This document shows, one piece after another, positions 1-40,528 of a stretch of 40,556 nt of DNA. Under the pieces are notes generated by a model, which was not told the DNA's origin, made no database searches, and saw only the letters and a program-made list of their open reading frames with translations. Positions within the stretch are counted from its first letter, which is position 1. Each line of letters starts with the position of its first letter. This DNA comes from a virus, in IMG/VR virus record IMGVR_UViG_3300042691_017303, positions 1 to 40,556 of that record; one strand, 5' to 3'. Position numbers and translations under genes: made by a program.

Positions 1-2
1 GC

Positions 3-389
3 AAGAGCCAGATTCTCGCGTGCGTCCATCCGGGCGGCGGCTCGTCCTACGCGCTGTCGTATTCGATCCAGAAGATCATCGAGTCGCTGGACGGCGGCGA
101 AAAGCCCGCTGTCGGTCTTTACGGCCACTACCACAAACTCTGGGCGGGCAACATCCGCAACGTTTGGTGCCTCCAGACCGGCTGCACGGAAGACCAGACG
201 CCGTTCATGCGGAAGAAGAAGCTCGAAGCCCATGTCGGCGGCGCGATCGTCGAACTTGAGCAGGATCCCGAGACGGGCGCCATCGTCGGGTTCACGCCGA
301 AGCTCATCCGCTACTTCAACAAGGGCTACTACAACAACCGCTGGAACCACGGCGGCGGTGTGGAGCTGCCGGAGCGGGGTGTCGCATGA
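3..389 (+). CDS. Calcineurin-like metallophosphoesterase, C-terminal part (5' truncated by window edge)
   Basis: The frame is open from base 3 to a TGA at 387-389, and the start lies outside the window. The visible 128 residues contain a VHPGG motif near the beginning and LYGHYHK around residue 38. The second matches the GHxH metal-ligand motif that closes calcineurin-like phosphoesterase domains. Enzymes of this family hydrolyse phosphodiesters or phosphomonoesters with two metal ions, and phage members are often annotated as DNA repair exonuclease-like or protein phosphatase-like. Which substrate this one uses cannot be told. The stop overlaps the next gene by 4 bp (ATGA), so it probably sits in the same late operon as the lysis genes. 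Confidence 0.75.
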   Translation, partial: KSQILACVHPGGGSSYALSYSIQKIIESLDGGEKPAVGLYGHYHKLWAGNIRNVWCLQTGCTEDQTPFMRKKKLEAHVGGAIVELEQDPETGAIVGFTPKLIRYFNKGYYNNRWNHGGGVELPERGVA

Positions 390-1658: not shown

Positions 1659-1726
1659 AACCGCTGACCTTCATCGCGTTCTTCCTTGCGGTGTGGGTCG
1701 CGCTTACCTACCTCGGAAAGCCCTGA
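1655..1726 (+). CDS. Tiny membrane peptide, 23 aa
   Basis: ATG at 1655 overlaps the o-spanin stop (ATGA) and the stop TGA at 1724-1726 overlaps the terminase start (TGATG). The product is almost entirely one hydrophobic helix (FIAFFLAVWVALTYL) followed by GKP. Overlap at both ends and a clean membrane helix make translation likely. Its position after the spanins suggests an accessory lysis or holin-like peptide, but that is a guess. Confidence 0.45.
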   Translation: MKPLTFIAFFLAVWVALTYLGKP

Positions 1727-3366
1727 TGCCTCTGCCCCAACACATCAACCCGGCCACCGGCAAGCGGTACGGCTTCGTGCCGCCGGAGAAGCGCGGCCGC
1801 GAGAAAGAGGAAGAAGCGAAGGCGCTCCAGCGGGAACTACAGCTTCTCGAACGCCGGAAGAAGATTCTCGACGCGCGCGACAGCCTGATGACGTTCACGA
1901 AGCTGACGATGCCGCACGTCGAGGATCCGAACGACATTGGCCGCTCTATGTACGAGCCCGCGGCCTTCCACCACGAAGTCGCCAAAGTGCTCGAACACGT
2001 CGTTCGCGCGGAAATCCCGCAGCTCATCTTCTGTATGCCGCCCCGGCACGGCAAAACCGAACTGGCCACCAAGCGCCTTGCCGCTTGGTACTCCGGCCTC
2101 AACCCGCACCACGACATCATCGTGGCGTCGGCGTCCGACCTGCTGGCCACCGACATGGGCGCCGACGTGCGCGCCATCATGCACTCGCCGGCGTTCAAGC
2201 AAATATTCCCCGAGCACAAGCTGCGGCGCGGTGGCAACGCCAAGGACAACATCCAGACCGACAAAGGCGGGCGCCTCATCTTCGCGGGCCGTGGCGGCAC
2301 CATCAACGGTCGCGGCGCCCATCTGCTTCTCGTGGACGACCTCTACAAGGACGCGCAGGAAGCGGCCTCCGAAACGATCCGCAATCAGACCTGGGATTGG
2401 TTCACGAAGGTCGCGCTCTACCGCCGCATGGGTAAGCGCCTGACCGTTCTGACGATGACGCGCTGGCACAGCGACGACATTATCGGCCGGCTCACCGACC
2501 CCGAGAACCCGCACTACAACGAGGCCGAAGCGAAGGCGTGGAAGATCATCCGCCTGCCCGGCCTTGCGGAAGACGACGATCCGCTCGGCCGTAAGCCCGG
2601 CGAAGCTCTGTGGCCCGAGCGGTACGACACGGAATACCATCGCGGCAACATGCGCCGCGACCCGCTCGGTTTCGCCGCGCTGACGCAGCAGCGGCCCACG
2701 GTGGCCGACGGCGTGCTGTTCCGGCGCGAGAACGTCCAGTTCTACAAACCGGCCGAGCTGCCGGAGGAGCTGCGCTACTACTGCGCCAGCGACCACGCCG
2801 TCGGCACGAACCAGCGCAACGACCCCTCCTGCTTCGTCAAGGTCGGCGTTGACAAGCAGAACAACATCTACGTCTTGGACTGCTTCTGGCAGAAGGTGCC
2901 GACCGACCGCGCCGTCGAAGCCATGCTGACGATGGCCTCGGGCGACAAGCGACCCCTGCTGTGGTGGGCGGAAAAGGGCCACATCTCCAAGTCCATCGGC
3001 CCGTTCCTCTACAAGCGGATGCAGGAGTCCGGCGTCTACATCAACCTCGTCGAAGTCACCCCGGCCAAGGACAAGGAACAGCGCGCGCAGTCGATCGCCG
3101 CCCGCGTGGCAATGGGCAAGGTCTTCTTCCCCCGCGATGCTTTCTGGACCGAGCGCGCGATCAACGAGATGCTGGCTTTCCCGAACGGGAACCATGACGA
3201 CTTCGTCGACGCTTTGGCGTATATTGGCCTCGGATTGCAAAGCCAGTTCGGCGCCTCGGTCAAGAAAAAGGTCGAGGAGCCGCGCTTTGGCACGCTCGGT
3301 TGGGTCAAACTGGCCGACAAATGGAAGGCCGAGCAGGATGATGCTCGGAGGCACGGAGGGTTCTGA
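1726..3366 (+). CDS. terL: Terminase large subunit (ATPase and nuclease)
   Basis: This motor protein drives DNA into the prohead and cuts the concatemer. The ATPase domain shows Walker A in MPPRHGKTE (about residues 104-112) and Walker B in LLLVDDLYKD (about 200-209). The RNase H-like nuclease domain shows an acidic residue in ASDHAVG (about D356) and the C-terminal acidic cluster NHDDFVDAL (about 489-497). The length (546 aa) is normal. I chose ATG 1726 over the in-frame GTG at 1693 because GGAAAG at 1715-1720 sits five bases upstream and the start overlaps the preceding stop. No gene with small-terminase features precedes it. The stop overlaps the portal start (TGATG). Confidence 0.95.
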   Translation: MPLPQHINPATGKRYGFVPPEKRGREKEEEAKALQRELQLLERRKKILDARDSLMTFTKLTMPHVEDPNDIGRSMYEPAAFHHEVAKVLEHVVRAEIPQLIFCMPPRHGKTELATKRLAAWYSGLNPHHDIIVASASDLLATDMGADVRAIMHSPAFKQIFPEHKLRRGGNAKDNIQTDKGGRLIFAGRGGTINGRGAHLLLVDDLYKDAQEAASETIRNQTWDWFTKVALYRRMGKRLTVLTMTRWHSDDIIGRLTDPENPHYNEAEAKAWKIIRLPGLAEDDDPLGRKPGEALWPERYDTEYHRGNMRRDPLGFAALTQQRPTVADGVLFRRENVQFYKPAELPEELRYYCASDHAVGTNQRNDPSCFVKVGVDKQNNIYVLDCFWQKVPTDRAVEAMLTMASGDKRPLLWWAEKGHISKSIGPFLYKRMQESGVYINLVEVTPAKDKEQRAQSIAARVAMGKVFFPRDAFWTERAINEMLAFPNGNHDDFVDALAYIGLGLQSQFGASVKKKVEEPRFGTLGWVKLADKWKAEQDDARRHGGF

Positions 3367-11244: not shown

Positions 11245-11731
11245 GGCGGCCAACAAAACAGACATCGAGTACGTGGCCCGGCGGATGCGGCCCGCCGACT
11301 ACGCCGAGTTCTCGGCGGTCTATGGGATCCGCGACCGCGACGCCCTTGTGGACAAATTGGTGGACACCTGGTCGAAGGTGTCGAGCCCGATCCTAGCCTC
11401 GATGCCCGACGAGCCCATCGCCGTCGGCGGCGTCTTCATCGGCCGGCAGGGGGTCGGGACGCTCTACATGGCGGCCACCGAGCGGCTTCCGGTCATCGGC
11501 CTGCCGCTGACCCGGTTCATCCGGCACCGGCTGCTGCCGCAGGTGCGAAGCGCCGGCGTCCATCGGATCGACTGCCTGTCCATCAGCACCCACCTCGACT
11601 CGCACCGCTGGCTGGAAAGCCTCGGCCTCGTCCGCGAGGCCGAACTGCGGGGTTTCGGGTGCTTCGGCGAAGATTTCGTGTCCTTCTCGTGGGTTAGCCA
11701 TGATGTTCGCAAGGTTGGCGATCGCGGATGA
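11234..11731 (+). CDS. GNAT-fold protein, T7 gp13/DUF2833-like
   Basis: The 165-residue protein starts at ATG 11234 inside the end of the nozzle gene. The N-terminus (VEAANKTDIEYVARRMRPADYAEF) and the C-terminal HLDSHRWLESLGLVREAELRGFG follow the pattern of the DUF2833/gp13 family: a D-I-x-x-V-A-x-x-M-R opening, then a late segment like the end of a GNAT acetyltransferase. In T7 gp13 is needed for proper virion assembly but is not a major virion component. A classic acetyl-CoA loop (Q/RxxGxG/A) is not clear, so catalysis is uncertain. It is followed by a second GNAT gene with a 32-bp overlap. Confidence 0.75.
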   Translation: MRVEAANKTDIEYVARRMRPADYAEFSAVYGIRDRDALVDKLVDTWSKVSSPILASMPDEPIAVGGVFIGRQGVGTLYMAATERLPVIGLPLTRFIRHRLLPQVRSAGVHRIDCLSISTHLDSHRWLESLGLVREAELRGFGCFGEDFVSFSWVSHDVRKVGDRG

Positions 11732-12152
11732 TAAGGCCGCCGTTCTCGCGCTGGCCCGGATGCAGGTGGAAGAAACGCTACCGCATCTGGCTTTTGACGC
11801 GGACATTTGCGGTGAAACATTCGATCTATACCTGGCTCGCGCGGAGCCTACGATCTTCGTCGTAGAGAGCGAGCGGGAAGTCGTCGGCTACCTCATGGCG
11901 CTGACGGCCAACTATGCAATGGCCGCTGGACTTTACGTCGTCCAGGAGGCACTATACGTCCGTCCCGATAAGCGCGGAACTCGGGCCGCCGCTCACTTGG
12001 TAAAAGCCTTCGTCCAGTGGGGCGAACGCATGAACGCCAAGGAAATCATCTTCGGCATTTCCAACGGGTTCCAGCCCGATAGGACCGCCAAGTTCTTCGA
12101 GAACGTGGCGGGGGCCAAGACGGTCGGGTTCTACCTCAAAAAGGTGCGGTGA
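11700..12152 (+). CDS. GNAT family acetyltransferase-like protein
   Basis: The 150-residue protein has the layout of a single GNAT domain. A helical N-terminus is followed by beta strands (TIFVVESEREVVGYLMALT), then the motif A region EALYVRPDKRGTRAAAHLVKAF with the R-G-x-x-A acetyl-CoA loop at about residue 90. The C-terminus resembles a strand pair ending in GFYLKKV. It would transfer an acetyl group from acetyl-CoA to an unknown amine. It lies inside the virion operon between a gp13-like protein and internal virion proteins, so it may modify a virion protein or assist assembly rather than act on metabolism. Confidence 0.78.
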   Translation: MMFARLAIADDKAAVLALARMQVEETLPHLAFDADICGETFDLYLARAEPTIFVVESEREVVGYLMALTANYAMAAGLYVVQEALYVRPDKRGTRAAAHLVKAFVQWGERMNAKEIIFGISNGFQPDRTAKFFENVAGAKTVGFYLKKVR

Positions 12153-25252: not shown

Positions 25253-26536
25253 GTGAACACGCCGTACCCGCATCAAATCGAAGGCGCCCGTTTTCTCGCC
25301 GCTAGGAAATCCGCACTACTGGCGGATGAGCAGCGTGTTGGGAAAACGGGCGCAGCGATCATGGCGTGCGATTACGTGCTGGCCCGACGCATCCTCGTCG
25401 TCACCACGGCCTCTGGCCGCCCCAACTGGAAGCGCGAGTTCGGCGAGTGGTCGAACATGGACCGCAGCGTCGGCGTCATCTACGGCTCGTCTGGCTCGGC
25501 CCTGAACACCGACGTGGTCATTGTCGGGTGGGACAGCCTTGCGGCGCTGGCTCCGCAGCTCGCCGCGCAAGCCTGGGACGTCGTCATTTTCGACGAATCC
25601 CACTACGCCAAAAACCCCGAGGCCAAGCGCACCGTCGCCGCGTTCCACAGCGGCCTCAAGGCGCGCAACGTCTGGTGTCTTAGCGGAACCCCAATGGCCA
25701 ACTCTCCGGCCGACCTTTACCCGATGCTTGGGGCCCTAGCCCCCGAGCGCGTCACCGGGCTCACCTACGACGCCTTCGTCGACCGCTACTGCACTTGGTA
25801 TCCGAAGCGTCTGCGCTTCAACACCATCCGCGTCATCACGGGCGGCAAGAACCTCGACGAACTGCGCCAGCGCCTCGACGGCTTCTGGCTGCGCCGCACG
25901 CAGCAGGACGTCGGCATCACCAAGCCGGTGTTCGCTCTCCACAGCCTCCACGTCCACGGGCTCCCCAAGGAGCTGCGGGACAACGAGGATGCTCAGTCCA
26001 TCTTGGACGCGGCCGAGGTCGGAGAAACCAAGAACTTGGAGATGCACTTGGGGCCGCTGCGCCGCATCACCGGCCAGTTGAAGTCCGGTGCGGCCGCGAA
26101 GGCGGTGGCCGAGGAACTGGACAACGGCCTCGACAAGATCGTGCTGATGGCTTGGCACACGGACGTCATCGACGCCCTCAAGACGCTGCTCAAGCCGTAT
26201 GGTGTTGTCGGCATTGACGGCCGCACGCCCGCGACTGCCAGACAGGCCGCCGTCGATGAGTTCCAGCGAGGCGCTGCGCGCGTGTTCGTCGGCCAAATCC
26301 AAGCCGCCGGCGAAGGCATAGACCTCTCGGCCGCGTGCGAGCTGATGTTCGTCGAGTACAGTTTTGTGCCGAAGGATTTGGCGCAGGCGGCCCTCCGTAT
26401 CACCAATCACCTACAGAAGCGGCAACCGCGGGTCCGCGTCTGTGCGCTCGAAGGCTCGATCGACGAGTCCTTCGCGCGAATCCTCACCCGCAAAGTCTCG
26501 ACCATCAAACAAGTCCTTGAAAGGAGCCAAACGTGA
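25253..26536 (+). CDS. SNF2/superfamily 2 helicase
   Basis: The 427-residue product starts at GTG 25253 with GGAG six bases before it. Helicase motifs are in order: motif I ADEQRVGKTGAA (GKT around 30-32; the usual ADEMGLGKT has diverged), motif II DESHYAKN (about 113), motif III LSGTPMAN (about 144), and a C-terminal RecA-like half with QIQAAGEGIDLSAA and AALRITNHLQKRQP (motif VI, with Asn-His replacing the usual Arg-x-Gly). Length fits the short phage SNF2-type proteins found beside DUF2800 and DUF2815. It probably remodels replication or recombination intermediates. GTGA overlap with the next gene. Confidence 0.9.
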   Translation: MNTPYPHQIEGARFLAARKSALLADEQRVGKTGAAIMACDYVLARRILVVTTASGRPNWKREFGEWSNMDRSVGVIYGSSGSALNTDVVIVGWDSLAALAPQLAAQAWDVVIFDESHYAKNPEAKRTVAAFHSGLKARNVWCLSGTPMANSPADLYPMLGALAPERVTGLTYDAFVDRYCTWYPKRLRFNTIRVITGGKNLDELRQRLDGFWLRRTQQDVGITKPVFALHSLHVHGLPKELRDNEDAQSILDAAEVGETKNLEMHLGPLRRITGQLKSGAAAKAVAEELDNGLDKIVLMAWHTDVIDALKTLLKPYGVVGIDGRTPATARQAAVDEFQRGAARVFVGQIQAAGEGIDLSAACELMFVEYSFVPKDLAQAALRITNHLQKRQPRVRVCALEGSIDESFARILTRKVSTIKQVLERSQT

Positions 26537-27018
26537 TCGAAGTTCGTATGACCTTCTCCTCGGTCGAGGAGATGCTGGCCAAACTGGGCGGCACGGCCCC
26601 CGCCGCCGTGGCGCCCGCCCCGACCCCCGCCCCCGTGGCCGAACCTGCGCCCGCCCCGGCCGCCCCCGCCGAGAAGCCCAAGAAGCCGAAGGCTGCGAAG
26701 GTCGAAGTGACCGTCGAGCCCGCCCCGGCGCCTGCGCCCGCTGAGGCCGCGCAGGACAAGAAGGACGAAGCGCCCAAGGCGACGACCCCCGCCAAGGACG
26801 TGACGATCGACGACGTCCGTAACACGATGGGCCTCTACGTCAAGAAGTACGGGATGCCTGCGGCGCAGGCCGACGGCCCCGCGCTCTTGGCCAAGATGTT
26901 CGGCGAAGGCTGCAAGAAGATCAGCGACATCCCGAACACGCCGGAGATGTACGGCAAAGCCATCGCCGCCATCGAGGAGATGATCGCGAAGAACCCGAAC
27001 AACCGGACGGCCGTCTGA
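26533..27018 (+). CDS. Ala/Pro-rich linker protein with C-terminal helical domain, 161 aa
   Basis: It begins at GTG 26533 (GTGA overlap). Residues 1-20 form a short domain (EVRMTFSSVEEMLAKLGG). Residues 21-95 are an Ala/Pro/Lys-rich linker with repeated PAPAP. The last 65 form a helical module (VTIDDVRNTMGLYVKKYG, then EMYGKAIAAIEEMI). The two small ordered ends joined by a long linker suggest a tether. It is wedged between the helicase and the DUF2800 nuclease, so it may connect replication or recombination partners. No catalytic motif, no family recognised. Confidence 0.6.
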   Translation: MIEVRMTFSSVEEMLAKLGGTAPAAVAPAPTPAPVAEPAPAPAAPAEKPKKPKAAKVEVTVEPAPAPAPAEAAQDKKDEAPKATTPAKDVTIDDVRNTMGLYVKKYGMPAAQADGPALLAKMFGEGCKKISDIPNTPEMYGKAIAAIEEMIAKNPNNRTAV

Positions 27019-28283
27019 TGGGACTCCACGCAACCTGGTCGGCGTCGGCCTCGGCTCGCCTGTGGGCGTGCCCGGGTTCGCTGGCGCTGTCTGCCAAGGT
27101 GCCGCCGCAGCCCTCCGGGGCTGCGGCGCAGTGGGGCACGGCATGCCACACCGTCTCGGAAGACTGCCTCCGCAACGGCCGGGAGCCCGAGGAGTGGATC
27201 GGGCGCACGGTCGATGTCGGCGACGGCAAAGTCGAGTGCGACGAGGAGATGGCGGATACCGCCAAGGTCTATGTCGACTATGTCCGCGAGCGCCGAGGCG
27301 GCGTCGACAACACAGGCGACTACGTCAACCCGCTTTTCATCGAACAACGCTTCAACCTCGCCGCACTTACCCCGCCGTTCGACGCTGGCGGAACCGGCGA
27401 CGCCGTCATCCACCTAGCCGCCGAAAAGCTGCTCGAAATCGTCGACCTCAAGGGCGGCCGGGGTGTCGTCGTCGAGGCCGAAGGCAACAAGCAGATGCGG
27501 ACCTACGCCCTCGGCGCCATGCTGGCCTTCCCCAAGCTGGACGTCGATGCGGTCAAGGTCACGATCGTCCAGCCTCGCGCGCCACACAAAGACGGCCGGA
27601 TCCGCTCCGAGGAGTTCCACGTCGCCGACCTGATGGAATGGACGGCCGACTTGTTGGCCGCCATGCGCGAGTCGAAGGCCGCAGAGGAGCGCTACGCCAC
27701 CATCAAGGGCGATCTGTCCCGCGAGGAGTGGGGTGCCGCCTACCTCTCGACGGGCGAGCACTGCACCTTCTGCCCCGCCCGGGCGATCTGCCCGGCGCAG
27801 GAGAAGGCCGCTCTGGACGCTGCGGGTGTCTTCTTTAACGACCGCGACGAGCCGACACTCCGCAACACGCCAGACGAACTGGACCCGACGCGCTTGGCCA
27901 AGGTGCTCGACATGGCCGACATGATCGAGTCCTGGCTCAACGCCTGCCGGGCGCTGGCGCACACGCTGGCCGAAGGCGGGACCGACATCCCCGGCTATCA
28001 GCTCGTCGAGAAGATCGGCCGTCGCAAGTGGACGGACGAAGACATGGTGGTGGCCGGGTTGACCGCCGCCGGCATGGGTGTGGACGACCTCTACGAGCGC
28101 AAGCTCAAGAGCCCAAGCCAAGTCGAGAAGACCTTGGGATCGAAGCGCAAAAAGAAACTCGCTTCGACCCTTGAGGCGCTGACCGAGAAGCCCATCACCG
28201 GGCTCAACTTGGTTCGCGCCGACAAGACGTCGCGCCCTGCCGTGGTGGCCGGGCCGACGAAGTTCCTCTCCGTGATCGATTGA
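27018..28283 (+). CDS. DUF2800 Cas4/RecB-like PD-(D/E)XK nuclease
   Basis: The 421-residue protein begins in a TGATG overlap. It shows the layout of DUF2800 and Cas4/AddB-type nucleases: ATWSASASARLWACPGSLAL with Cys18; a core with GTGDAVIH followed by EIVDLKGG, supplying the D...D-x-K catalytic set; and a C-terminal cysteine triad in CTFCPARAICP (about 248, 251, 257). The four Cys would hold a 4Fe-4S cluster. Enzymes of this class are 5'-3' or end-processing exonucleases in recombination. It precedes the DUF2815 gene, its usual partner, in what looks like a phage recombination set. Confidence 0.88.
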   Translation: MGLHATWSASASARLWACPGSLALSAKVPPQPSGAAAQWGTACHTVSEDCLRNGREPEEWIGRTVDVGDGKVECDEEMADTAKVYVDYVRERRGGVDNTGDYVNPLFIEQRFNLAALTPPFDAGGTGDAVIHLAAEKLLEIVDLKGGRGVVVEAEGNKQMRTYALGAMLAFPKLDVDAVKVTIVQPRAPHKDGRIRSEEFHVADLMEWTADLLAAMRESKAAEERYATIKGDLSREEWGAAYLSTGEHCTFCPARAICPAQEKAALDAAGVFFNDRDEPTLRNTPDELDPTRLAKVLDMADMIESWLNACRALAHTLAEGGTDIPGYQLVEKIGRRKWTDEDMVVAGLTAAGMGVDDLYERKLKSPSQVEKTLGSKRKKKLASTLEALTEKPITGLNLVRADKTSRPAVVAGPTKFLSVID

Positions 28284-28294
28284 AAGGAAAGCCT

Positions 28295-28915
28295 ATGGCC
28301 AACGCACGCTCCGAAGACTTCGTCATCAAGAACGTCCGACTCAGCTACCCGAACCTCTACAAGCCGCAAGTCAAGGACGACGGCAAGAAGCAGTTCAACG
28401 CGACTCTGCTGTTCCCCAAGACGGCCGCCGACACGGTCGCCGCGCTCAAGAAGGCGGTCGGCGAAGTCGTCGTCAAGCAGTGGGGCGACAAGGGCCTGCC
28501 GCGCTTGCAGCAGGGCCTCATCAAGAACCCCGTGCTCGACGGCGACGGCCCGCAGGGCCTCAACAAGAAGTCGGGTGCGCGCCACGGCGGCTACGAGGGC
28601 TGCTGGTTCATCCGGGCCAGCGCCAACGAAGACCGGCCGCCGCGCCTCTACACCCGCTCCCTGACGATCGCCGGGCCCGACGACATCTACGCCGGCTGCT
28701 ACGTCAACGCGGTCATCAACGCCTTCGCCTGGAGCAATCCGAAGAACGGCGACGGCGTGTCGTTCGGCCTGACCTACGTGCAGTTCGCGGCTCCGGGCGA
28801 GCGCCTGGGTGGCGGCGCCCCGCCGGTCGAGTCGCTGCTGGAGAAGATCGCGGACGAGGGTGCGGCTCCTGCGGCGACGCAGGGTGGCGCCGGCGCTGGC
28901 GGGTTCTTCTCGTGA
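28295..28915 (+). CDS. DUF2815 single-stranded DNA-binding-like protein
   Basis: ATG 28295 has AAAGGAAA upstream and is preferred over TTG 28280. The 206-residue product has the DUF2815 pattern: DFVIKNVRLSYPNLYKP at the start, NATLLFPK, KNPVLDGDG, a long beta-rich OB-fold-like middle, and VNAVINAFAWSNPKNGDGVSF. The end is flexible (GGAGAGGFFS), ending in aromatic residues as SSB tails often do. DUF2815 proteins are described as single-stranded DNA-binding and lie next to DUF2800, SNF2 helicase and family A polymerase genes in many phages, as they do here. The stop overlaps the GapR-like gene (GTGA). Confidence 0.85.
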   Translation: MANARSEDFVIKNVRLSYPNLYKPQVKDDGKKQFNATLLFPKTAADTVAALKKAVGEVVVKQWGDKGLPRLQQGLIKNPVLDGDGPQGLNKKSGARHGGYEGCWFIRASANEDRPPRLYTRSLTIAGPDDIYAGCYVNAVINAFAWSNPKNGDGVSFGLTYVQFAAPGERLGGGAPPVESLLEKIADEGAAPAATQGGAGAGGFFS

Positions 28916-29187
28916 CTGCGGGCCCGGGTCACAACTCGGCGGGAGGGATCGCAGCCGACAAGCTGCGGTCCTTCATCGAGCGCATCGAGCGGCTGGAAAC
29001 CGAGAAGGCCGACCTCGGTGCCGACATCCGCGAGGTCTACGCCGAAGCCAAGGGCAACGGCTTCGATACGAAGATCATGCGGAAGATCGTGGCGCTGCGG
29101 AAGATGGAGGAGGCCGACCGGCGAGAGCAAGACGAGCTGGTCAACCTCTACCGCCGCGCCCTCGGCATCGAGAGCGTGCTCGACTGA
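28912..29187 (+). CDS. GapR/DUF2312-like DNA-binding protein, 91 aa
   Basis: GTG 28912 overlaps the previous stop. The product opens with GHNSAGGIAADKLRSFIERI and continues through ADIREVYAEAKGNGFDTK to LRKMEEADRREQDELVNLYR. This is the whole DUF2312 domain, almost to the length of chromosomal GapR, a nucleoid-associated protein of Alphaproteobacteria that binds overtwisted, AT-rich DNA and works with gyrase at replication forks. The coiled-coil and the KGNGFD/LRKI helix-turn are intact. A phage-borne copy placed after an SSB-like gene and before nucleotide and polymerase genes suggests a role in phage replication. It overlaps the next gene by one base. Confidence 0.88.
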   Translation: MTAGPGHNSAGGIAADKLRSFIERIERLETEKADLGADIREVYAEAKGNGFDTKIMRKIVALRKMEEADRREQDELVNLYRRALGIESVLD

Positions 29188-29351
29188 TGGGCCAGAAGAC
29201 CGTGATGGGGCCTGTCGTCATCGGCGGCAGGCTTGAGTTCAACGGCTTCGTCGTCGCGCGGCTGACCGGCAGCTTGGACAAGGAGGTCAAGTGGGCCTTC
29301 GAGGACTGGCTGGCCGAAGCCGCGCGACGGATGAAGCAGAAGGGAGCCTGA
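29187..29351 (+). CDS. Small protein, 54 aa
   Basis: ATG 29187 overlaps the GapR-like stop (TGATG) and TGA ends it one base before the HD gene. The product is a short beta-helix pattern (VIGGRLEFNGFVVARLTG, then EVKWAFEDWLAEAARRM), which could be a small domain with one amphipathic helix. The tight coupling supports translation. No family recognised. Confidence 0.6.
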   Translation: MGQKTVMGPVVIGGRLEFNGFVVARLTGSLDKEVKWAFEDWLAEAARRMKQKGA

Positions 29352-29352
29352 T

Positions 29353-29868
29353 ATGTCTTGGATTCAGACCGCCAGCGGCCGTCAATTTTGGCCGTTGCGC
29401 CCGTCCGCCGAGGACGTGGACCTCGAAGACATCGCCCACGCGCTCGCGATGAAGTGCCGCTACAGCGGGCACACGCAGCAGTTCTACAGCGTGGCCGAAC
29501 ATTCGGTCTACGTGTCCCGGTACTGCTCACAGGCCGTCGCGTTGTGGGGGCTACTCCACGACGCCAGTGAGGCTTACCTGCCCGACGTTTCTCGGCCTAT
29601 CAAGCCGCACCTGACGGGCTTCGCCGACATCGAAGCGGGCGTCATGCGGGCCATGTGCCACAAGTTCGGTCTGCCGCACGCCGAACCCGCCGAGGTCAAG
29701 GCGATCGACACGCGGATCCTGCTCAACGAGAAGGCCGTGCTGATGCCGCACACGCCGGCCGACTGGGGCATCGAGGCCGAGCCGCTGCCCGGCCTGCGGA
29801 TCGAGTGCTGGACGCCGACCGAAGCCAAGACGCAGTTCTTGCGTCGTTTCAAGGAGCTTGTGGGATGA
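29353..29868 (+). CDS. HD-domain phosphohydrolase (YfdR-like)
   Basis: The 171-residue protein has the HD signature: CRYSGHTQQFYSVAEHS with H40 and H50, then LLHDASEAYLPDV with H69 and D70, and AIDTRILL with D119. The overall pattern matches YfdR-type proteins of E. coli prophages and related phage phosphohydrolases, which remove phosphates from nucleotides. DatZ, the dATP triphosphohydrolase of 2-aminoadenine phages, is also a small HD enzyme, so dATP is a possible substrate, but I cannot tell from sequence alone. Together with the dATP/dGTP diphosphohydrolase-type gene it suggests control of the purine pool. It overlaps the next gene by 4 bp. Confidence 0.82.
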   Translation: MSWIQTASGRQFWPLRPSAEDVDLEDIAHALAMKCRYSGHTQQFYSVAEHSVYVSRYCSQAVALWGLLHDASEAYLPDVSRPIKPHLTGFADIEAGVMRAMCHKFGLPHAEPAEVKAIDTRILLNEKAVLMPHTPADWGIEAEPLPGLRIECWTPTEAKTQFLRRFKELVG

Positions 29869-30098
29869 GGCCATCCGCTGTGCTGCGCGCATCGCCGCAG
29901 CTAACCGTCAAACAGCGCCGCGAGATCGCCGCCGTACTCGACGAGACAGAGGCGGCGTTGGTTGAGTGCTTTCGTGCTATGAAGCCGTATGCCAAAGTTG
30001 CGATTGTCGGGGACTACCCGCCAATTAAATCCGCGCTTACGATCGCCGCAGAGAAAGTTTTAGCCGCGCTCACCAAGCTGCGGGGCGAAGCGCCGTGA
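29865..30098 (+). CDS. Hypothetical protein, 77 aa
   Basis: It starts in an ATGA overlap with the HD gene and ends in a GTGA overlap with the next gene. The product is mostly helical (TVKQRREIAAVLDETEAALV, then ALTIAAEKVLAALTKLR). Base composition in its second half is a little more AT-rich than its neighbours. No motif recognised. Confidence 0.55.
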   Translation: MRPSAVLRASPQLTVKQRREIAAVLDETEAALVECFRAMKPYAKVAIVGDYPPIKSALTIAAEKVLAALTKLRGEAP

Positions 30099-30367
30099 CC
30101 CCGCAAGACGAAGCCGCGCTCGCCGATGCCGCGCAAGGCGTTGCTGCGCTGCGCGAGGCCGCCGCCCGCGGCCTTCTGCTCAACAACCTGTTCCAATGCG
30201 ACAAGGGCCGCTTCCACGCCGCCTTCAAACGCCGCAACGGCGACAGCTACGACTACTTCCCGTTTGCTCAGGCCGATACGGCCTCCGAGGCGTTGCGGGC
30301 GGCGTTGGCTTTGGCGGCAGACAAACCCGCCGTGGCCTACGACGGCGAAGGGAGCGTTTTGGACTGA
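30095..30367 (+). CDS. Hypothetical protein, 90 aa
   Basis: Starts at GTG 30095. Residues 1-30 are helical and Ala-rich, and the second half is a small alpha/beta pattern (RFHAAFKRRNGDSYDYFPF, then EALRAALALAADKP) that looks like a compact domain. The last ten codons, ending DGEGSVLD, are repeated at 30528-30558 just before the methyltransferase gene, and only one synonymous base differs. Its stop overlaps the start of a 14-residue ORF (TGATGA). Function unknown. Confidence 0.55.
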   Translation: MTPQDEAALADAAQGVAALREAAARGLLLNNLFQCDKGRFHAAFKRRNGDSYDYFPFAQADTASEALRAALALAADKPAVAYDGEGSVLD

Positions 30368-30369
30368 TG
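30339..30369. repeat. Direct repeat copy 1: gene tail encoding DGEGSVLD
   Basis: Thirty-one bases matching 30528-30558 except GAC/GAT (both Asp). Both copies keep the same reading frame and end in TGATG, the start overlap of the next gene. Confidence 0.9.
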
Positions 30370-30411
30370 AAGTACGGACCCGATAAACTCTCAGAAGGAG
30401 ACAGAGTATGA
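30367..30411 (+). CDS. Possible leader peptide, 14 aa
   Basis: ATG 30367 overlaps the preceding stop and the TGA at 30409-30411 overlaps the start of a membrane peptide. The peptide reads MKYGPDKLSEGDRV. It may simply couple translation between neighbours. Confidence 0.3.
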   Translation: MKYGPDKLSEGDRV

Positions 30412-30488
30412 CCGCTAACTGGCTGTACCTCGCAGGTTCTACATGCTTCGCCCTCGGAACAATCATCAACATGCTGTCCGCACGATGA
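30408..30488 (+). CDS. Small membrane peptide, 26 aa
   Basis: ATG 30408 has AAGGAG nine bases upstream. The peptide contains one hydrophobic helix (NWLYLAGSTCFALGTIINML). Short single-helix proteins of this NWLY...G...F type recur in phage genomes without known role. It lies inside the segment bounded by two direct repeats. Stop overlaps the next mini-ORF (ATGA). Confidence 0.5.
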   Translation: MTANWLYLAGSTCFALGTIINMLSAR

Positions 30489-30556
30489 GCGCGTTACCTA
30501 CAGAGCGGAATAAACATCGTGCGGAGAACGACGGCGAAGGGAGCGTTTTGGATTGA
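30485..30556 (+). CDS. Mini-ORF ending in the duplicated tail DGEGSVLD, 23 aa
   Basis: ATG 30485 overlaps the previous stop (ATGA). The reading frame runs [15 protein letters not shown] and then into repeat copy 2 (DGEGSVLD), so the duplicated gene tail is still in frame. It looks like a gene whose middle was lost or a fusion made by recombination. The stop overlaps the methyltransferase start (TGATG). Confidence 0.35.
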
Positions 30557-30558
30557 TG
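30528..30558. repeat. Direct repeat copy 2: gene tail encoding DGEGSVLD
   Basis: Matches 30339-30369 at 30 of 31 positions; the copies are 189 bases apart and bracket the three mini-ORFs. Confidence 0.9.
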
Positions 30559-31626
30559 CCCGTAGACATCCTTCAAGGCGACGTTTTCTCTTGCTTGGAT
30601 ACGCTGCCGTCAAACCACGTCCACACGATCGTCACGAGCCCTCCTTACTGGGGCCTGCGCGACTACGGCGTCGTCGGCCAGATCGGCATGGAGCCGACCC
30701 CGCAGGAGCACGTCGAGACAATGGTGCGCCTCTGCCGCGAGCTGCGGCGCGTGCTGCGTCCTGACGGGCTGCTCTGGATGAACTACGGCGATATGTGGGC
30801 GTCGAGCGTCAACGGCCGTAGCGCCTCCGACACGAAGGCCGCCGGCAACGACGACCGCACGTTCCGCGACAAGCCGTTCTCGACGGTCGTGGGCGGCCTC
30901 AAGGCGAAAGACCTCGTGGGTATGCCGTGGCGAATCGCTCTCGCTCTCCAGGCCGACGGTTGGTGGTTGCGAGACTGCGTCATCTGGCACAAGCCCAACC
31001 CCATGCCGTCGAGCGTCAAAAGCCGCTGCACCCCGGCCTACGAGTATGTTTTCATGCTGGCGAAGTCGGAGAAATACTACTTCGACCACGCGGCCATCAA
31101 GGAGCCCATAGCGGAGTCGAGCAAGAAGCGCTACGCGCAAGCCACGATCGACACGCAACAGGGCGGCTTCAAGCAGGACCAGTACGAGAGCGGCATTGCG
31201 GGGGCCCGCGTCCGCTCCCGGCGTCCTAACGAAATTATCAAGTCTCTGGCCGCTGACGGCCAAGAGATGCGCGCCAAGCGGAACGTCTGGACGATTCCGA
31301 CGCAGCCCGTGAAAGAGGCGCACTTCGCCACGTTCCCCGAGCGCCTTGTCGAGCCGTGTATCCTTGCCGGGGCGCCTTCTGGCGGCACGGTCCTTGACCC
31401 GTTCTTCGGCTCGGGGACGACGGGCGTGGTGGCGCAGCGGCTCGGCCGCAATTGCATCGGGATCGAACTAAATCCCGCGTACATCGAGATTGCGCGGGCG
31501 CGGCTGGCTGCTTTGGCGGCCGACACAACAAACTCGAAAGGAGGTGATCGATATGGCGAAGAAGGGAAAAGGCGGTCGCAAGTGCTAGCGCACGAAAGCG
31601 ACGAGAGCGGCGGGGTGTTCGGATGA
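30556..31626 (+). CDS. DNA methyltransferase, beta class (TSPPY)
   Basis: The 356-residue product starts at ATG 30556. It carries motif [14 protein letters not shown] near residue 27 and, close to the end, motif [11 protein letters not shown] with the following strand [14 protein letters not shown] (about 280-310). This order (catalytic motif first, SAM-binding motif last) is the beta class of amino-methyltransferases, which make N4-methylcytosine or N6-methyladenine. The TSPPY form does not decide between them. A 70-residue insert around 90-220 probably holds the target-recognition region. No partner restriction gene is next to it, so it probably acts as an orphan protecting phage DNA. The last 35 residues lie outside the core and contain a strong internal ribosome site. 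Confidence 0.9.
31538..31549 (+). promoter_or_regulatory. Exceptionally strong ribosome binding site inside the methyltransferase gene
   Basis: AAGGAGGTGATC is the exact 12-base complement of the 3' tail of bacterial 16S rRNA. The next start codon, ATG 31553, is eight bases after GGAGG. The site lies in the last 90 bases of the methyltransferase gene, 74 bases before the HNH gene. Confidence 0.7.
31553..31588 (+). CDS. 11-residue basic ORF behind a perfect Shine-Dalgarno
   Basis: ATG 31553 to TAG 31588 encodes [11 protein letters not shown], out of frame with the methyltransferase. The ribosome site before it is far stronger than for any neighbour. It may be a real mini-gene or a device to load ribosomes for the HNH and polymerase genes. 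Short Lys/Gly-rich peptides ending in Cys occur in other phages, with no known role. Confidence 0.4.
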
Positions 31627-32153
31627 GCACCCTGCCGCGAGTCGAGGTCTGGAAGCCCGTTGTCGGCTTCGAGGGCTTGTACGAAATCAGCGATCAAGGG
31701 CGGGTGCGGTCGCTTGACCGGATCGTTTACGTTATCCGGGCCGACGGAGAGGTAAGCGAGAGGTTCTACCGTGGGCGCGTACTGCGGCCAGGGCCTCGCC
31801 CGAGCGGCCACCTCACCGTTGTAATCGGCGGGGCCACCCATAACGTCCACACCCTTGTCCTAACTGCGTTCACCGGTCCGCGCCCGTTCCCCGACGCGCA
31901 AGCGCGTCACCTAAACGGCGACGAGAAAGATAATCGGGTGGAGAACTTGTGTTGGTCTACGCGCGCCGAAAACACGCGGGACCGCAAGTGGCATCGCAGC
32001 AGCGTCGTTTACCGACTGTCGCCGGCTCAAGCCGCGCAGATCAAAGAGCGCATCCAAAACGGGGAGACGCATAAGCGCTTAGCTATCGAGTTCGGCGTCG
32101 CCAGATCGACCATCACGGCAATCAACGCGGGGAGGTTCCATGTCGATGTCTGA
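31623..32153 (+). CDS. HNH homing endonuclease with NUMOD4 and HTH domains
   Basis: The 176-residue protein has NUMOD4 at residues about 8-60 ([20 protein letters not shown]). An HNH nuclease core follows at about 75-125 ([14 protein letters not shown], then [18 protein letters not shown]), with conserved His, Asn and Asp/Glu residues. A C-terminal helix-turn-helix at about 135-170 ([13 protein letters not shown], then [15 protein letters not shown]) completes the DNA-binding part. Such free-standing endonucleases cut homologous loci that lack them and copy themselves in. It overlaps the methyltransferase stop (ATGA) and the polymerase start (14 bp), and sits just before polA, a common target gene of homing elements. 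Confidence 0.9.
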
Positions 32154-34290
32154 GTTCCTGTTCTTGGACATCGAATCCCGCTCTGCGGTCGACCTCCGCA
32201 AGACCGGCGCGCATGTCTACTTTGAGAGCGACACGACCGACGTCTGGCTCGCGTGCTACGCCTTCGACGACGAAGAAGTGCAGACGTGGTGGCCGGGTGA
32301 GCCGTGCCCGCCGCGCATCGCCGAGCACATCCGCGCCGGCGGCATGGTGTCGGGCTGGAACGTGGCCGGGTTCGAGATGCTTGGCTGGAACGCCCTGCTC
32401 GGCCCCAAATACGGCTGGCCGATTCCGCGCGTCGAGCAGTACGACGACACGGCCGCGATGGCCGCTGCGATGGCTCTGCCGCGCGATTTGGCCGGGGCCT
32501 CGGCCGCTCTCGGCCTGCCGGTGCAGAAGGACATGGAGGGCCGATCGGTCATGCTCCGCATGGCCAAACCCCGCAAGCCGCGCCGTGGCGAGCCCGACGG
32601 CCTCTACTGGCACGACGCCGACAAGGAATCGCTCCAGCGTCTCGCCGCCTACTGCAAAATCGACGTAGAGACGGAGCGCCTGGCCCGCCGTCGCCTCGTA
32701 CCGCTGTCCGAACTCGAACGCCGCATCTGGCTCCTCGACGCCAAGATCAACAACCGCGGCGTCCTCCTCGACCTGCCGCTTGTCCGCGCGATGAAGCAAA
32801 TCGTCGAACAGGCGCAGACCCGCCTCGACCGGGAGATGACGCTGGCGACAGGCGGCTACGTCACGGCGGCCACGCAAGTCGGCGCGCTGACGAATTGGCT
32901 GCAAGACAACTACGTGCCAGCCGAGAGCTTGGCCAAGTCGTCGATCAAGGAACTGCTCAACCTCGAAGACCTCCCCACCAACTGCCGCAAAGCGTTGGAG
33001 CTGCGGCAAGAGGGGGCGAAATCGAGCACGGCCAAATTGGAGGCCGCGGAGCAGGTGGCGTGCAAAGACGGCCGGGCGCGCGGGATGCTTCTGTACCACG
33101 GCACCTCTACGGGCCGTTGGGCTGGAAAATTGCTCCAGTTGCAAAATTTTCCACGCGGAACGGGGGTAATTAAGGACCCCGAAAAGGCCGTGCCGGATAT
33201 GATGCGCGGCGATGCCGAGTGGGTTTCTTTCCTCTATGGCCCGCCGCTTTCGGCTGTATCGGATTGCCTGCGTTCGATCATCCGCGCCGCACCAGGCCAC
33301 GACCTCATCAGCGCCGACTTCTCTGCGATCGAAGGCCGCGTGACGGCTTGGCTGGCCGAGGAGCAGTGGGAACTCGACGCCTACCGGGCCAATGACGAAG
33401 GCCGCGGGCCCGGCCTCTACGAGATTGCGGCCGCTGACATCTTCAACGTGCCAGTGGCGACCATCACCAAGAAGGATCCCCGAAGGCAGGTCGGCAAGGT
33501 CGCGGTTCTTGCCCTCGGCTTTGCCGGCGGTGTGCGCGCCTTCTACTCGATGGCCAAGAACTACCCCGACGTCGACATGGCCGCCGCCTACGGGCCGCTC
33601 AAAGACGCCGTGGCGGCCGACACGTTCGAGAAGGCGGCAGAGCGCTACGCCGAGTGCTTGGCCCGCAAGGACCAAGGCGCCGATCAGATGCCGCGAGAGG
33701 CGTGGATCGCGTCGGAACTCACCAAGGTCATGTGGCGCGCGAAGCACCCCAAGACCGTCGCGCTGTGGAAGGCGCTGGAGGTTGCGGCCTTCGAGGCCGT
33801 CGAGAATCCGGGCCATGTCCGCGTCGTCAACGGCAAGGTCGCGTTCCTCGTCCGCATGGGGTTCCTCTGGTGCCGGCTCCCGAGCGGCCGTTGCCTTGCC
33901 TACGCCAGCCCCAAGATCGGCGACGTGGAAGTGCCGTGGGCCGACAAGACGAAGCCGCCGTCAGAGCGGGAGAAACGCAAGGCCGTTACCGCTCTTGGCG
34001 TCAACTCTGTCACGAGAAGATTTGAGAGATACACAATGTACTCGGGCTTATACACCGAGAACTGTGTACAAGCGATTGCGCGCGACATCATGGCGAACGC
34101 CATGCTGAAAGCCGAGGACGCCGGGTATCCAATCGTTATGACGGTCCACGACGAGCTGGTGGCCGAGGTTCGCAAAGACTTCGGAACCGTCAAAGAATTT
34201 GAACGACTTATCTGTGACTTGCCCATGTGGGCCGCTGGTCTTCCGCTTACTTCCGGCGGCTATCGCGCGGAGCGTTTTAAAAAGGATTGA
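32140..34290 (+). CDS. polA: Family A DNA polymerase with 3'-5' exonuclease domain
   Basis: This 716-residue protein is the replicative polymerase candidate. An N-terminal DnaQ-like domain shows FLDIES (D10, E12), a mid Asp in EQYDDTAAM and YCKIDVETE (about 172). The polymerase domain shows motif A LISADFSAIEGRV (about D393), motif B RRQVGKVAVLALGFAGG (about 448) and motif C MTVHDELVAE (about 668). In motif B the usual aromatic FGxxYG is replaced by LGFAGG, a form seen in phage polymerases of this length. ATG 32140 has GGAGG six bases upstream and lies inside the HNH gene. Two AT-richer stretches with inverted repeats occur in its coding sequence. Confidence 0.94.
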   Translation: MSMSEFLFLDIESRSAVDLRKTGAHVYFESDTTDVWLACYAFDDEEVQTWWPGEPCPPRIAEHIRAGGMVSGWNVAGFEMLGWNALLGPKYGWPIPRVEQYDDTAAMAAAMALPRDLAGASAALGLPVQKDMEGRSVMLRMAKPRKPRRGEPDGLYWHDADKESLQRLAAYCKIDVETERLARRRLVPLSELERRIWLLDAKINNRGVLLDLPLVRAMKQIVEQAQTRLDREMTLATGGYVTAATQVGALTNWLQDNYVPAESLAKSSIKELLNLEDLPTNCRKALELRQEGAKSSTAKLEAAEQVACKDGRARGMLLYHGTSTGRWAGKLLQLQNFPRGTGVIKDPEKAVPDMMRGDAEWVSFLYGPPLSAVSDCLRSIIRAAPGHDLISADFSAIEGRVTAWLAEEQWELDAYRANDEGRGPGLYEIAAADIFNVPVATITKKDPRRQVGKVAVLALGFAGGVRAFYSMAKNYPDVDMAAAYGPLKDAVAADTFEKAAERYAECLARKDQGADQMPREAWIASELTKVMWRAKHPKTVALWKALEVAAFEAVENPGHVRVVNGKVAFLVRMGFLWCRLPSGRCLAYASPKIGDVEVPWADKTKPPSEREKRKAVTALGVNSVTRRFERYTMYSGLYTENCVQAIARDIMANAMLKAEDAGYPIVMTVHDELVAEVRKDFGTVKEFERLICDLPMWAAGLPLTSGGYRAERFKKD
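33123..33180. repeat. Inverted repeats within the polymerase gene
   Basis: TGGAAAATT (33123-33131) and AATTTTCCA (33145-33153) are a perfect 9-bp inverted repeat with a 13-base spacer. Just downstream GGGGT (33163-33167) and ACCCC (33176-33180) form another. The stretch is strikingly AT-rich for this gene and encodes LLQLQNFPRGTGVI near the polymerase core. Confidence 0.6.
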
Positions 34291-38164: not shown

Positions 38165-40273
38165 ATGACAAGCGAAAACCCCTTCCTGCGCTTCTGGAGC
38201 GCAGGCTACAAGCGTCTCGTCCCCATCGTCCCGCCGGGTGCAGCACCCTCTCCCAACAGCACTTTTGCGCGTAGGCCCAAGGCCATAGGCAAGGCGCCGG
38301 GCGTGAAGAACGCCAACGGCCAGTGGCACGGTTTCGACTGGCTCAACCACGAAACCACGGCCGACGATTTGGCCCGCTGGCACCTCATGGGCGCCGGCGT
38401 GGGGATCCGCACAGGCGGCCAACTTGTCGCCATCGACATCGACACGACCAACCCTCAACTCGTGGAGCGCATCGTTGCATCGGCTGAATCCACTCTGGGA
38501 AACGCACCTGTTCGCGTCGGGCGGGCCCCAAAGCTGCTTCTGCTCTATGCTCTCGGAGCACGCGCAGCAGCCAGTGAAGATGAAGGCGTGCCGTATCGCC
38601 GAGTGCTGTTTGAGGATGGAACCTATTGCGAGAAGGGTGCAGAACCCCGCGTCGAACTCCTCGCCGAAGGCCGCCAATTCGTAGCCCACGGCGTCCACCC
38701 GTCCACGGGCAAGCCCTACGCCTGGCCCAACGGCCTGTGGAGCGTCGACAAGCTGACGCGCGTGACGCCCGCGGCGCTGGATAGCTTCTTCGACGCGATC
38801 GCATCCTACCTGCCCGCAGCCGCATCTCACGTCGATGCGACACCTACCACCCGAGCCCTCGTCGACCAGGCAGCGCTTCAAGGACGCCTCGAAGACGTGC
38901 GGATGGCCGTTGCCGCCCTGCCCAACACAACCGCAGCGTTCCCGACCTATGGCGATTACGTGCGCGTAGGCTATGCCATCAAAGGCGCCACGCAGGACGA
39001 CCCTGCAACCGGCCTTGATCTGTTCCAGCAATGGGCCGCCAAGTGGGAAGGCGGAAACGACCCCGAGGTCGTGGCTGCCGACTGGCGCAGGATGAAGCCG
39101 CCCTACGCCTTGGGCGCTCAGTACCTCTACGACCTCGCCGAGCGCCACGCTGGCCGGGGTAGCTTCGATCGGGCTGCGACCCTGCTGACTGCCGAGCCGA
39201 GCGATATCGGTATGCCGACATCGGCGCCCGCCAAGCCGCGCTACGTCCACATGAGCATGGCCGAACGCGCGGCCGTGGCCGATACCGACGCCGTCAAGCC
39301 GCTGGTGCACGGGCTCCTCGACCAAGGCGCCATGACTGTCCTCTACGGCGAATCGAACTCCGGCAAGACGTTCGTGGCCCTCGACATCTGCCACCACATC
39401 GCCTCTGGTACACCCTACAACGGCCTCCCCGTCACCCAGGGCGCCGTAGCCTACATCGTGGCCGAAGGCGGCCGGGGTATCGCCAAGCGTATCAAGGCGC
39501 TGCGCCTAGCGCGCCCGGAGCACGCCGACGCGCCGCTCTACACGATCGTCAGCCCCGTCAACATGCTCGACCCCAACGCCGACCTCGTGCCGCTGACCGA
39601 GCACCTCATCAAACACCTGCCGCAGCGGCCCGTCCTCGTCGTATTCGACACCCTCTCCCGCGCAATGGCCGGCGGCGACGAGAACTCCTCCACCGACATG
39701 GGCGCGCTCGTGAAGAACGGCGACCTTCTCCGCAACGCCACTCAGGCGCATCAGCTCTGGATCCACCATTCCGGTAAGGACAGAGCCCGCGGCGCCCGAG
39801 GCCACTCCCTGCTCCGAGCCGCCACCGACACGGAAATCGAAGTGGCCGACAACACGATCGTCGCGACGAAGCAGCGCGACATCGAAACCCGGTTCAAGTC
39901 TGGCTTCGTGCTTGAGCCCGTCTCTGGCTCTGAGTCGGCCATCGTGCGGCTGACGGGCGAGGCTGACGTCAGCGCGGAGGACTTCCCCGAGCCGGCGACG
40001 CGCGTGCCGACGCGCAAAGAGGAAGAGGTTCTGAGGGCGATGCGCGAGGTCGCGGCGACCAACGTGGGCGGCACTGGCGCCGTCAACGTCGGCCGCTTGC
40101 TGTCCTATATGCGGGATAGTTTAGAGGCGGACATGGACAAAAAGTCCTTGGACAACTACTTGCGCGCTCTTTTGGCCAAGCGCCTCGTCCGGAAGCCTGT
40201 TCGGGGCTATTACGAGGAAGTTTTGGTGTCTGAGAAAGTCCATAACGAAGTCCACGATGACTTTATGTCGTGA
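38165..40273 (+). CDS. Primase-polymerase / RecA-like helicase fusion
   Basis: The 702-residue protein begins with a prim-pol domain (residues about 10-210) showing GVGIRTGGQLVAIDIDT with the DxD metal pair near residues 90-92. A PriCT-type linker follows at about 255-310 (YVRVGYAIKGATQDDPATGL, ending WRRMKPPYALG). The RecA-like ATPase (AAA_25/RepA type) has Walker A YGESNSGKTFVA (about 395-402), Walker B VLVVFDTLSRAMAGGDEN (about 490) and IHHSGKDRARGARG (about 532-545). The end (about 610-702) looks like a winged-helix region. This combination both primes and unwinds DNA, so it is the likely replication initiator or helicase. Its 3' end carries the first repeats of the downstream origin-like array. 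Confidence 0.9.
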   Translation: MTSENPFLRFWSAGYKRLVPIVPPGAAPSPNSTFARRPKAIGKAPGVKNANGQWHGFDWLNHETTADDLARWHLMGAGVGIRTGGQLVAIDIDTTNPQLVERIVASAESTLGNAPVRVGRAPKLLLLYALGARAAASEDEGVPYRRVLFEDGTYCEKGAEPRVELLAEGRQFVAHGVHPSTGKPYAWPNGLWSVDKLTRVTPAALDSFFDAIASYLPAAASHVDATPTTRALVDQAALQGRLEDVRMAVAALPNTTAAFPTYGDYVRVGYAIKGATQDDPATGLDLFQQWAAKWEGGNDPEVVAADWRRMKPPYALGAQYLYDLAERHAGRGSFDRAATLLTAEPSDIGMPTSAPAKPRYVHMSMAERAAVADTDAVKPLVHGLLDQGAMTVLYGESNSGKTFVALDICHHIASGTPYNGLPVTQGAVAYIVAEGGRGIAKRIKALRLARPEHADAPLYTIVSPVNMLDPNADLVPLTEHLIKHLPQRPVLVVFDTLSRAMAGGDENSSTDMGALVKNGDLLRNATQAHQLWIHHSGKDRARGARGHSLLRAATDTEIEVADNTIVATKQRDIETRFKSGFVLEPVSGSESAIVRLTGEADVSAEDFPEPATRVPTRKEEEVLRAMREVAATNVGGTGAVNVGRLLSYMRDSLEADMDKKSLDNYLRALLAKRLVRKPVRGYYEEVLVSEKVHNEVHDDFMS

Positions 40274-40425
40274 TTTCAGCGGTTTGTTGAAGTCCAGAAA
40301 AAGTCCATGAGAAGTCCATGACATACAAATGCGGTTTTCGGACTTGTGAGACGAAGTCCAGTCCAGTCCATGTCCCCCTATAAGGGACATGGACTATGGA
40401 CTTCTCAGTCAGTCGAAATGGACTT
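40236..40425. repeat. Iteron-like array of AAGTCCA(T): candidate replication origin or operator cluster
   Basis: AAGTCCA occurs on the plus strand at 40236, 40248, 40290, 40301, 40312 and 40354, with further GTCCA at 40361 and 40366. On the minus strand AGTCCAT (seen as ATGGACT) occurs at 40389, and the full AAGTCCAT (ATGGACTT) at 40396 and 40418. Start-to-start distances of the six direct full copies are 12, 42, 11, 11 and 42 bases, all close to whole helical turns, so bound proteins would line up on one face. The array is not translated except for its first two copies at the end of the primase-helicase gene. Confidence 0.72.
40365..40395. repeat. Perfect 12-bp inverted repeat (hairpin) inside the array
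   Basis: AGTCCATGTCCC (40365-40376) and its exact complement (40384-40395) flank the AT-rich loop CCTATAA. The arms carry the array motif. It could extrude as a cruciform, serve as a priming or binding site, or act as a terminator, although no T tract follows on the plus strand. Confidence 0.75.
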
Positions 40426-40528
40426 TTCGACCCCTGGCGCAGTTGCAGACAAGATGTCCAGCCCCGTTACCCAGGCCAACTTGGACGACGCAACCCGGCC
40501 ACCGACCACGGGCTGCGGTTCGGCGTGA
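40418..40528 (+). CDS. Doubtful small ORF after the array, 36 aa
   Basis: ATG 40418 opens within the last inverted iteron and runs to TGA 40526-40528 with no ribosome site. Product is Thr/Pro/Ala-rich with no motif. The remaining bases to 40556 hold GTGACGG-type triplets and no gene I can support. Confidence 0.2.
   Translation: MDFSTPGAVADKMSSPVTQANLDDATRPPTTGCGSA

Follow-up and report, generated by a model that had tools for sequence, protein, structure and literature searches.

In phage lambda, the host helicase DnaB is loaded by P. The lambda origin is a phage iteron origin tied to a replication gene, with the iterons lying inside that gene (PMC11447400). Other initiators recognize repeats behind their own gene. 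The Rep proteins of SaPIs and the Cch2 protein of SCC elements recognize repeats located 3' of the genes that encode them, which for Cch2 has been shown with the isolated C-terminal domain (PMC7581432). The SaPI/PICI origin lies directly 3' of the gene for its SF3 initiator-helicase and consists of two sets of short repeats around a centre that is simply AT-rich, and PICI rep-ori segments drive plasmid replication (PMC6092414). A primase is sometimes fused to Rep in these elements (PMC6092414; PMC7581432). Cch2 of SCCmec, a 3'-5' helicase of another family, binds only three direct repeats. In the RSF1010 (IncQ) plasmid, oriV contains iterons together with hairpins for priming (PMC4234260), and the helicase, primase and iteron binder are three separate proteins (RepA, RepB' and RepC). 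The Prim-Pol protein ORF904 of pRN1 has an SF3 helicase and an essential stem-loop just downstream of its gene. The sequence of stem-loops of this type varies whilst their structure is kept, and it is on the stem-loop rather than on iterons that the authors rely for the pRN1 type (PMC4234260).

We have analyzed here a whole viral record of 40,556 bp (the window), in which a repeat array built around a hairpin is found at the end of a primase-helicase gene (Table 1). We think it likely that this array is the phage's self-loading replication origin, and we infer that it is bound by the C-terminal domain of the primase-helicase encoded upstream, with the palindrome in its centre as the point of opening. 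Since the first ORF (window 1-389) is open at the 5' end, we are probably dealing with a fragment. The record encodes a terminase large subunit, a major head protein and an endolysin, and thus does not qualify as a phage satellite. The region before the primase-helicase gene (window 25253-34290) codes for an SNF2 helicase, a DUF2800 protein, an Enc34-like single-stranded DNA-binding protein, a methyltransferase, an HNH nuclease and a family A polymerase, and the gene order ahead of the primase-helicase is partly common to Rhizobium phage N65.

With the SaPI/PICI origin the site shares its place directly 3' of the initiator-helicase gene, which the array occupies in the window and in relatives alike, its two repeat sets around a central region (direct copies to the left of the hairpin, inverted copies to the right) and the fusion of the helicase to a primase, here of Prim-Pol type. 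The counterpart of the repeat-recognizing C-terminal domain is in our case a predicted winged helix that covaries with the repeat, without binding data. The differences are that the helicase has a RecA fold of RepA/AAA_25 type instead of being an SF3 enzyme, that the centre is a CCTTTAGG-like palindrome, albeit within an AT-richer stretch, and that the window is no satellite but comes from a phage that carries a terminase and a capsid gene of its own. SCCmec Cch2 provides a further precedent, in which direct repeats behind a helicase gene are bound by the C-terminal domain of its product. RSF1010 has a helicase of the same RepA family and a similar combination of iterons and hairpins; in the window, however, a single chain, in which the binder domain is predicted, takes the place of the three proteins, and the site lies behind the helicase gene. 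Like pRN1, the window has a stem-loop close behind the gene of a Prim-Pol protein. What appears to be new, judged from sequence, is the SaPI-like layout with a non-SaPI helicase, together with a shared central core.

Table 1. Coordinates of the primase-helicase gene and of the elements of the repeat array in the window.
Feature	Position	Strand	Basis or detail
Primase-helicase gene, 702 aa	38165..40273	+	Pfam, profile match, AlphaFold2, Foldseek
C-terminal winged-helix domain (predicted; proposed repeat reader)	40013..40219	+	AlphaFold2, Foldseek
Direct AAGTCCA copies	40236, 40248, 40290, 40301, 40312, 40354 (span 40236..40360)	+	
Single-stranded fold-back of direct and inverted copies around the hairpin	40298..40427		Fold prediction
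Partial copies AGTCCA, leading into the hairpin	40360 and 40365 (40360..40370)	+	
Perfect 12-bp hairpin AGTCCATGTCCC-CCTATAA-GGGACATGGACT	40365..40395		Arms 40365-40376 / 40384-40395
Central core CCTATAAGG, corresponding in the window to the CCTTTAGG-like core of other arrays	40377..40385		
Inverted copies	TGGACT 40390 (partial), TGGACTT 40397 and 40419 (40390..40425)	-	

The primase-helicase is composed of a Prim-Pol domain (residues 12-190), a PriCT-2 domain (250-325), an AAA_25/RepA-type helicase domain (367-540) and a predicted C-terminal winged helix (617-685). The helicase part matches RSF1010 RepA (1g8y) in a profile comparison (E=4e-17) and has it as the first-ranked Foldseek hit, although there are no hexamer data. 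Its AAA_25 assignment and RecA fold set it apart from the SF3 (AAA+) enzymes. The C-terminus was modelled by AlphaFold2 as helix-helix-helix-strand-strand with a pLDDT of about 75-90, and the best PDB folds for it are winged-helix domains, such as those of Rpa2, the MCM C-terminus and BlaI, none of them at E<0.001.

Within 40236-40425 AAGTCCA is present as eight exact 7-mers, six direct and two inverted, and five of these are also copies of the exact 8-mer AAGTCCAT. A partial copy beyond those listed in Table 1 (GGACTT) is found at 40340. No 7-mer exceeded four copies in 2000 dinucleotide shuffles of the region, for which the mean maximum was 2.0. Searching the remainder of the record, as the original prediction had suggested, revealed no second cluster, just three single copies of AAGTCCA (2989, 11927 and 22192). 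The direct copies follow one another at intervals of 12, 42, 11, 11 and 42 bp, which places them at 0, 1.14, 5.14, 6.19, 7.24 and 11.24 turns of 10.5 bp and thus roughly on one face of the helix. With a GC of 0.45, the array stretch contains more AT than the window as a whole (0.66), though its centre is a GC-flanked TA palindrome. The hairpin, whose arms are built from one direct and one inverted partial repeat, is longer than any other perfect hairpin (loop 3-12) of the window, and the region 40274-40440 has a predicted folding energy of -36.8 kcal/mol (z=-7.3) that no shuffle matched. The original prediction of direct copies followed by inverted ones around a hairpin is borne out by the positions and strands of the copies, whilst several of its details require adjustment. 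The repeats are real, but the nine copies of an 8-base motif that it described are in fact the exact copies counted above plus partials. The spacing values and, roughly, the one-face phasing hold, but the order of the intervals is the one given here. The hairpin is indeed perfect and 12 bp long, but its loop is not purely AT. Finally, the array directly follows the gene only for the most part, since the first two direct copies (40236 and 40248) lie inside its 3' end (stop at 40273).

We found no close relatives of the window, the best identity being 44-47%, and it was therefore the position of the array rather than its sequence that we tested in related phages. Since searches with the single protein gave few close matches, IMG/VR was scanned with an alignment of the window protein and its relatives. 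Among the first loci inspected, the densest 7-mer cluster was at the end of the helicase gene in five lineages besides the window, each with its own repeat core; in the nearest relative, this position is occupied by 10 copies of another repeat. A locus from Azospirillum brasilense p4 was an exception, with a dense CGGAACG array (11451-11750) about 3.3 kb beyond the primase gene. We scored an array as present where, in the interval from -50 to +250 relative to the helicase stop, some 7-mer was found five or more times. A first set of relatives, together with the window, formed 39 clusters at 70% identity over the last 300 aa. By this criterion an array was present in 27 of them, compared to 2 of 226 other ORFs from these loci (p=2e-25). 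The criterion was then kept unchanged for two further scans, which yielded a held-out set of 67 clusters, all less than 60% identical to anything used before, and here 42 clusters had an array, compared to a single one of the 216 control ORFs (p=2e-31). As caveats, the controls are mechanical ORFs, and their 3' windows are often inside neighbouring genes, whereas the helicase windows are mostly intergenic. About one third of the helicase clusters lack an array by the same criterion, amongst them sampled actinophages, a Vibrio phage and IME_EC2. Of ten annotated phages added later, seven lacked an array and three had one (Roseobacter CRP-823, Escherichia PaulFeyerabend and Enterobacter phiEap-2); the first set had already included Rhizobium phage RHph_N65. 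The original prediction proposed a search for the motif in related phages as a check, and at the distance of the relatives available it is an array behind the helicase gene that recurs, with letters that differ by lineage.

The layout of 28 arrays was compared. The median distance from the stop codon is 9 bp for the start of the first copy and 147 bp for the end of the last, neighbouring copies on the same strand are mostly spaced by 9-12 bp (62 of 118), and the arrays are AT-richer than their own loci (GC 0.511 vs 0.589, p=9e-6). A search for triples of AAGTCCA separated by gaps of 3-5 bases returned 78 viral stretches, most of which are regular tandems, commonly with a 12-bp period, and only one of them sits behind a primase-helicase in a blastp check. 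In that 111-kb viral contig (L174:1190-1500), AAGTCCA is present in both orientations right behind a primase-helicase that we judged by eye to be D5/SF3-like. The C-terminus of this protein is unrelated to that of the window protein, despite the same core repeat.

Iteron similarity follows the similarity of the C-terminal 80-140 aa when the helicase core is controlled for (partial Mantel r 0.24-0.28, p=0.0002-0.0005), and no such relationship was detected in the reverse analysis of the helicase core with the C-terminus controlled for (r -0.02 to -0.07, p>0.6). The signal is carried by related pairs: it weakens to p=0.02 after thinning of clusters above 0.35 similarity and is gone at 0.20. On this statistical evidence, and in the absence of binding data, the repeat, which differs by lineage, appears to track the C-terminal winged-helix domain rather than the helicase core.

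Many arrays also have, between their direct and inverted copies, a small GC-flanked and TA-centred palindrome, CCTTTAGG or a variant thereof. We tested for this core with the pattern CCT[AT]3-5GG. The pattern occurs in 13 of 30 first-set arrays, compared to 10 of 239 control windows (p=1.6e-8) and at most 6 in 200 shuffles, and in 21 of 42 held-out arrays, compared to 9 of 216 control windows (p=9e-13). The held-out result carries more weight because the core had been noticed in the first set before being tested there. Where a repeat is found on both sides of a core, the two are in opposite orientation in 29 of 31 cases (one mismatch allowed), and the distance from core to repeat is most often 3-4 bp on the left and 0-4 bp on the right. 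On the coding strand the core reads CCTTTAGG in 13 cases and CCTAAAGG in 5 (TTTA vs TAAA, p=0.096), a possible hint of direction that we do not claim. Similar palindromes lie behind the helicase gene in two clusters that fall below the repeat criterion (L033:6525-6536, CCCCTATAGGGG; L092:5130-5141, ATCCCTAGGGAT). No description of CCCTTTAGGG as a known origin element was found in the literature among the matches listed, and, within the reach of our searches of the open-licence literature, the core common to these arrays is undescribed.

The original prediction held that the site looks like an iteron origin or a multi-site operator. An operator or autoregulatory site, through which the primase-helicase or a small regulator would control the early operon or the next gene without any start of replication, has in its favour that phased repeats are also seen in multi-site operators, that the array adjoins the end of the gene, and that in Roseobacter phage CRP-823 the next gene has the same direction. 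We nevertheless regard it as improbable and as the weaker half of that prediction: the motif is clustered near no other gene of the record, no sigma-70-like promoter was found at the array, and, from lineage to lineage, the site stays with the helicase gene and varies along with that protein's C-terminal domain. Partition, packaging or recombination sites can be repeat arrays too, but that the array serves another phage protein in one of these roles is rather less credible still, since it is not near the terminase gene (1693-3366) and its repeats track the helicase's own C-terminus. It is very unlikely that the hairpin is a transcription terminator and the repeats incidental. A strong GC-flanked hairpin right behind a gene would fit such a role, but the hairpin in the window has no T run after it and gave no terminator match, and repeats in both orientations would be left unexplained. 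Across lineages, just 2 of the 23 core hairpins whose arms measure 5 or more have a T run after them, and the core hairpins are thus not ordinary terminators.

Each of these readings explains less than a self-loading origin does. It is the iteron-origin half of the original prediction that fits the comparisons, with the layout recurring behind the gene in relatives, the repeat tracking the C-terminal domain and the hairpin having a recurring core, although origin function itself has not been shown. The cumulative GC skew of the window gives no indication of an origin at the array, nor is there a clear one in Rhizobium phage N65, and this measure is not decisive.

The mechanism that we propose for this origin is inferred throughout, without bench data on binding, melting at the core, the two rings, priming or origin function. 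The primase-helicase would bind the AAGTCCA repeats via its predicted C-terminal winged helix, with about one copy for each turn of the DNA and from a single side of it. Two facing sets of helicase subunits would be recruited, one by the direct repeats to the left and the other by the inverted repeats to the right; facing hexamers are known at viral origins from SV40 LTag and papilloma E1 (PMC3401641). Between the two sets the TA-centred palindrome CCTATAAGG may melt or be extruded as a hairpin. The core opened in this way would offer single strands on which the RepA-type ring could close, and a place for priming by the fused Prim-Pol domain.

On balance, and with considerable reserve, we favour the wider view that tailed phages have, in their RepA-type (SF4) primase-helicases, a large class of initiators that load themselves at an origin right behind the gene. 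This origin would be three-part, with lineage-specific iterons, read by a fast-changing C-terminal winged helix, surrounding a cross-lineage CCTTTAGG-type palindrome that is the site of opening or priming. If this is true, the origin could be found by a simple rule in a large proportion of the tailed phages that have a RepA-type helicase. The rule would cover cultured phages of Escherichia, Enterobacter, Rhizobium and Roseobacter, the origins of which would be testable at once. It would also mean that the SaPI-like layout exists with an unrelated helicase fold, and that the variable part of the origin, the iteron and its C-terminal reader, can be separated from the part that is kept, the core, which would suggest the core as the opening or priming site.
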